A DNA stretch of 64,000 nt from Candidatus Peregrinibacteria bacterium. GTDB taxonomy: Bacteria; Patescibacteriota; Gracilibacteria; Peribacterales; Peribacteraceae. Under the pieces are notes generated by a model. It made no database searches. It had not been told where the DNA came from and saw nothing but the letters and a program-made list of their open reading frames with translations. Position 1 is the stretch's first letter. Each line of letters starts with the position of its first letter. This document shows positions 2,239 through 2,321 of this stretch, one piece after another. The DNA lies in the NCBI GenBank assembly GCA_018648865.1, contig JABGQH010000013.1, forward strand, positions 1 through 64,000, read 5' to 3'. The position numbers were made by a program, and so were the translations under genes.

Positions 2239-2321
2239 TTGTATTACAATGTAATACAAATACAAATCCTTGTGTGACAATGTATTACAAACAGAGTACT
2301 TTGTAATACATTGTATTACAT
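2239..2321. promoter_or_regulatory. Triple palindromic operator between permease and RHH gene
   Basis: Three 21-bp palindromes lie at 2239-2259, 2270-2290 and 2301-2321. Each is two copies of the 9-bp palindrome TGTAWTACA set 10 bp apart; the first half of the middle site is degenerate (TGTGTGACA). Centres are at 2249, 2280 and 2311, exactly 31 bp apart, so all sites face the same side of the helix. The third site ends 14 bp before the regulator start and the first overlaps the predicted permease -35 box. This fits an autoregulated divergent operator. An equivalent cluster sits at 39440-39522. Confidence 0.85.

Follow-up and report, generated by a model that had tools for sequence, protein, structure and literature searches.

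In the 64,000-nucleotide stretch of DNA analysed here (the window), three palindromes separate a gene for a 55-amino-acid ribbon-helix-helix (RHH) protein from a divergently oriented permease gene, an arrangement that a preliminary description had taken for an autoregulated repressor controlling a metal- or thiol-related permease. The question raised by this locus is whether the palindromes belong to the permease, to the RHH gene or to something of wider scope, and it was addressed by comparing the window with the remainder of its genome (designated G000; Candidatus Peregrinibacteria/Peribacteraceae, 1.126 Mb, 23 contigs) and with the genomes of relatives.

The palindromic array and the adjacent RHH gene

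The three palindromes (array A) were present as originally described, with centres 31 bp apart at positions 2249, 2280 and 2311. The first (TTGTATTACAATGTAATACAA) spans 2239–2259 with its core at 2240–2258 and consists of two adjoining half-sites at 10 bp; the second (TTGTGTGACAATGTATTACAA) spans 2270–2290 (core 2271–2289) and the third (TTGTAATACATTGTATTACAT) 2301–2321 (core 2302–2320), no strand being assigned to any of them. The half-site TGTAWTACA, previously given for all six halves, holds for five; the sixth, the left one in the middle palindrome, reads TGTGTGACA, a variant that recurs in most G000 arrays, nearly all of which include one such half. A search of the window with TGTAWTACA-N-TGTAWTACA, allowing up to three mismatches, returned five matches versus 0.20 expected, and none of 100 shuffled sequences reached five, which excludes a chance origin of the window palindromes.

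The RHH reading frame proved real, with an ATG at 2336–2338, codons to 2500 and a stop at 2503 (gene 2336–2503, plus strand), so that 15 bp lie between the end of the third palindrome and the start codon. On the other side, the minus-strand gene at 1253–2209 encodes an ArsP_1 permease of 318 amino acids with a Cys-rich loop. The −35 element of the permease that had been placed under the first palindrome turned out to be merely a weak match (TTGTAA-17-TATTAT, 9/12, minus strand 2249–2221), and two sites of that quality were found against 1.3 expected. Immediately 3′ of the permease gene is a tRNA-Glu (ttc) gene (1066–1140, minus strand), and the RHH gene is followed on the opposite strand by a gene for a pyrK-like reductase subunit. 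Intrinsic terminators, defined by a G+C-rich stem and a run of T, were absent from the region 2150–2450 and there was no T-tract at array A; we therefore rejected the array as an intrinsic terminator.

The encoded protein, the presumed binder of the palindromes, carries a predicted RelB/DinJ-like RHH domain. Its matches to RHH models of Pfam and NCBIfam were weak, and the RelB/DinJ model TIGR02384 scored 24.7 bits (E = 2.1e-5), below the curated cut-off of 45.65 bits. The residues R11, K17 and S32, which do not vary within the family, align with R7, K13 and S28 of E. coli RelB, which contact operator DNA (PMC2812701). Residue 7 of the strand, by contrast, is T in G000, N in G001 and H in G034. 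The orthologues described below end at 54–60 amino acids and are devoid of the C-terminal toxin-binding segment, and no toxin-like ORF was recognized next to the RHH gene or its orthologues in the loci read. An AF2 monomer model recovered both expected helices at a modest confidence (pLDDT 69); its best Foldseek matches, CopG and ORF56, were non-significant (E > 0.5), and ORF56 was the sole solved homologue, weakly matched. We consider the protein a probable orphan RelB-type RHH domain resembling RelB/DinJ.

Conservation of the palindromes with the RHH gene

Records carrying the RHH gene came from Candidatus Peregrinibacteria and Peribacteraceae/Peribacter. A profile search yielded eight orthologues with scores of at least 85 bits (in G000, its congener G001, G011, G012, G034, G090, G091 and G095), plus a degraded copy in G018. 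It had been proposed that the palindromes should recur upstream of orthologues, and each of the eight intact orthologues indeed had them within about 50 bp upstream, written in the local spelling and imperfect in some genomes, despite changing neighbours: a gene for a PIF1-like helicase in G001, uvrC in G012, G034 and G091, rplC in G095 and lysS in G011. As the neighbours differ yet the palindromes stay, the latter are tied to the RHH gene rather than to the permease. This bears on the possibility that the locus is a local circuit alone, in which an autoregulated repressor governs the divergent metal- or thiol-related permease and all other copies are irrelevant. The divergent geometry with the array between both genes and the Cys-rich loop of the ArsP_1 permease are in keeping with such a circuit, but among the carriers whose flanks were read the permease adjoins the RHH gene in G000 alone, and the genome holds about 17 more arrays, which renders this explanation very improbable indeed. 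Of the original proposal, autoregulation by the RHH protein through tandem palindromes is strongly supported by the comparison (eight of eight orthologues and the genome-wide phasing reported below), while the control of the permease is not supported.

The spelling of the sites was specific to the lineage, namely TGTATTACAATGTAATACA in G000, the shifted TGTGTTACAATGTAACACA in G001 of the same genus, TGTATATACAATGTATATACA in G012, and TGTATGTACAATGTACATACA in G034 and G091; the dispersed version in G001 reads TGTGTTACA-W-TGTAAYACA. Half-sites are 10 bp apart in G000 and G001 and 11 bp apart in G012 and G034. The strict G000 pattern was absent from the other 57 relatives searched. With a looser pattern, only five of the 74 family genomes (G000, G001, G012, G034 and G091) contained at least 10 copies, and all five genomes with at least 10 strict-pattern copies carry an RHH orthologue (P = 3.5e-6 by genome and 1e-3 by genus). 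Using generic patterns, no dispersed copies were detected in G095 and G011, which keep the RHH gene together with its own operator, and few in G090, which also keeps the gene. At an orthologous site (L128 and L161), G034 and G091 agree in all 21 bp, whereas their non-coding flank can no longer be aligned, which argues for selection on the site. The conserved unit of the G012 and G034 sites is the palindrome alone, with flanks variable beyond 21 bp.

Several further observations were made in these relatives. An array in G001 (L052 on contig C22, 2460–2509) lies between rplC and lysS, the genes beside which the RHH gene is found in G095 and G011, respectively, so it may be what is left of a former RHH locus. 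G014 possesses seven sites of the type TGTATATACATTGTTTATACA (contigs C1, C3 and C5; L133–L135), five of which fall in a 102-kb part of contig C5, and a profile search did not find an RHH orthologue in this genome. A distinct palindrome, TGTGTAAACAATGTCAACACA, occurs as a single copy in four genera (L067, L069, L070 and L072; G072, G075, G076 and G005) and resembles an operator conserved for a different regulator.

Arrays across the chromosome and their positions

Array A, although a real operator-like array beside an RHH gene, is not unique. The paired pattern, with up to two mismatches, gave 49 matches in G000 and its reversed counterpart none; once a few weak or genic matches were removed, the former grouped into about 18 places, most of them outside divergent promoters. 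These counts derive from pattern searches, and C9:221564, C9:221996 and C15:53156, which are genic or weak and probably due to chance, were excluded from the final statistics. Most arrays comprise two to four palindromes. One of them, array B, lies in the window at 39441–39521 (no strand assigned), where a degenerate left part (TGTATTGCA, TGTAATACA) is joined to two exact palindromes at 39472–39490 and 39503–39521, 31 bp apart as in array A. It begins 2 bp past the stop codon of a gene ending at 39438, and 56 bp separate its end from the start of a downstream NTP_transferase-family (nucleotidyltransferase) gene at 39578–40537 on the plus strand. Start-to-start spacings of the 96 G000 half-sites were exclusively 10, 11, 20 and 21 bp, giving a vector strength of 0.97 at 10.5 bp. 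Since the linker sequences between palindromes vary, the phasing is what is kept, as expected of cooperative binding to one face of the helix and not of simple copying. Copying also occurs, as six G000 arrays have in common a longer composite that includes a CGTAWTACG half. The sites are spread over most of the large contigs of G000, and the spacing along contigs was somewhat more regular than expected by chance (P = 0.026 in G000, or 0.005 with one close pair merged, and 0.067 in G012), a marginal result that is suggestive only. Beside several arrays (L012, L019, L020, L023 and L025) we also noted a second dispersed repeat, accompanied by a conserved ORF fragment that contains LDTKNEPKKIKA.

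The positions of the sites were evaluated relative to genes called by our own codon-score ORF method. Apart from the sites at the RHH gene itself, none of 48 sites of G000, G012, G034 and G091 was located in a divergent region, compared with 23–38% of control intergenic positions (P = 4e-8), whereas convergent regions of the same four genomes contained 23 such sites versus 8 expected, and distant sites were also in excess directly after stop codons; in one case (L129 of G034) the palindrome lies 1 bp past one stop codon and 2 bp from that of the opposite gene. The sites of G001 showed no avoidance of divergent regions. Several arrays of G000 and G001 precede a start codon by 25–110 bp, an operator-like placement. 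Site positions common to species were found at eno (G000, G001 and G091) and, in G000 and G001, at the 3′ end of a transporter gene and at the gene for a 70-amino-acid protein described below; others have turned over between congeners. At 2523–2543 of both L176 and L170, TGTACATACAATGTACATACA lies within a reading frame and is conserved together with its surroundings in G034 and G091.

One reading of the dispersed arrays is a classical regulon, with the RHH protein as a global transcriptional repressor that uses the arrays as operators at about 20 promoters, including those of genes for cell-surface polysaccharide, sigma factors and lipoproteins, among others. It would account for the many G000 and G001 arrays that precede start codons by 25–110 bp, and for cross-genus repeats at pyrH and a wecB-like gene. 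A gene for a 70-amino-acid protein without a convincing Pfam match (L023, 3040–3252; L059, 2275–2487) has an array 71–80 bp upstream in both G000 and G001, retained even though the two species differ in how this gene is oriented towards its neighbour, and is the best candidate for a true regulon member. However, the complete avoidance of divergent regions together with the preference for convergent and post-stop positions in the four genomes means that a repressor regulon fits the distant sites poorly. Moreover, two G000 genes with a site on their promoter side, ligA and the NTP transferase gene downstream of array B, have G001 orthologues with no upstream site, and the neighbouring genes overlap little between genera. 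A regulon of this kind would suit the promoter of the RHH gene and a few conserved upstream sites, not the bulk of the sites, and we regard it as unlikely.

The same positions, at 3′ ends and between convergent genes, could alternatively be those of a protein-independent dispersed repeat (REP/BIME-like) or of a family of RNA hairpins or terminators that lies beside the RHH gene by coincidence. The composite shared by six G000 arrays, which points to copying, and the strong predicted RNA hairpins (z between −3.4 and −6.6) agree with this explanation. Against it, the unit in G012 and G034 is the palindrome only, the half-sites are themselves near-palindromic, a property that an RNA hairpin does not require, array A has no T-tract, G000 contains no REP-associated transposase, and the palindromes occur upstream of eight RHH orthologues and co-occur with the gene; we judge it quite improbable. 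Other origins were considered and dismissed. REP/RAYT transposition was rejected on finding no match to the REP-associated Y1 transposase (PF01797) in G000, G001 having one such match, and a larger mobile element because the flanks in G012 and G034 are not conserved past 21 bp. A collection of viral contigs provided neither a full-length relative nor anything coherent; it contained 14 single exact sites in total and none in the G034 spelling.

The explanation that we hold to be reasonably likely is that an autoregulated orphan RelB-type protein has operators spread over the chromosome, where they probably act as sparse architectural or roadblock sites. Each RHH dimer would recognize one near-palindromic half-site of 9–10 bp, and the protein would repress its own promoter via the array that precedes its start codon by 15 bp. 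The operator would have spread to about 18 places in G000, and to comparable numbers in the relatives that keep the gene, with the genus-specific spelling altered jointly in every copy. The majority of distant copies, which follow genes at their 3′ ends or separate convergent genes, would then serve as sparse bound points that organize the chromosome or block transcription, rather than in promoter repression; a roadblock at gene ends is one version of this bound-point idea and stands on a par with the architectural one. The best supported of these inferences are that the RHH protein regulates its own gene and that it recognizes every copy. A bolder proposal, which we consider unlikely, is that the single antitoxin-type RHH domain and its sparse, roughly even palindromes evolving in step make up a system for chromosome organization or segregation, set in candidate-phyla bacteria mostly devoid of ParB. 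ParB_N (PF02195) had no match in five carriers and was absent from 60 of the 74 family genomes. Replacement of ParB by the RHH protein was rejected, since most genomes of the family lack ParB_N whether or not they carry the RHH gene, so that no exchange between the two is apparent.

Very little is known about the DNA-binding proteins of candidate-phyla bacteria, and here, in several genera, comparative genomics alone sufficed to pair a minimal protein with its putative target sites, whose spelling shifts together at all copies. If binding is confirmed, these genomes would offer a natural series for the evolution of RHH specificity, an example of how an antitoxin-type domain was recruited to a genome-wide task, and a clue to the organization of chromosomes without ParB.

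Comparison with known systems

The protein described here resembles E. coli RelB in its predicted RHH domain with positions matching R7, K13 and S28; the RelB operator, relO, reads TTGTAATGACAT-TTGTAATTACAA (PMC2812701). Both systems have adjoining palindromic half-sites that lie along the same side of the helix, a TTGTAA...TTACAA core and an operator at their own promoter, and TTGTAATTACAA of relO resembles TTGTATTACAA of the present sites. They differ in that the half-sites are 12 bp apart in E. coli versus 10–11 bp here, in that our protein has 55 amino acids, lacks the toxin-binding C-terminus and an adjoining toxin gene and scores under the family cut-off, and in that its putative operators number about 10–35 copies per genome.

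The DNA-binding domain of MatP belongs to the RHH class. MatP of E. coli binds about 20 short chromosomal palindromes (matS), although these are restricted to the Ter domain and MatP is larger (PMC3330122). Here the sites are found on most large contigs, and the RHH gene has an operator of its own. REP/BIME elements are also short extragenic palindromes, often at gene ends (PMC3733652); compared with them, the present sites have far fewer copies, a unit of the size of two RHH half-sites, and a tie to a DNA-binding protein rather than to a REP transposase.

CdbA of Myxococcus xanthus is an RHH nucleoid organizer with a minor effect on transcription, but it has 569 ChIP-seq peaks, moderate specificity and a direct-repeat motif, and binds c-di-GMP (PMC7156744), whereas the sites described here are few and nearly exact palindromes. 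SegB of Sulfolobales, another RHH protein, has sites at its own operon and at 35–49 places over the chromosome, which are not promoter-centred and form a palindrome of two short palindromes (TCTAGASTCTAGA) (PMC12284271). Unlike SegB, which partners with the ParA-like SegA, our RHH protein has no such partner encoded beside it in the loci read; most SegB sites are intragenic and ours intergenic, and the likeness is one of arrangement, no relation in sequence being shown. With these differences, SegB would be the closest working analogy to the system proposed here, followed by CdbA and MatP.
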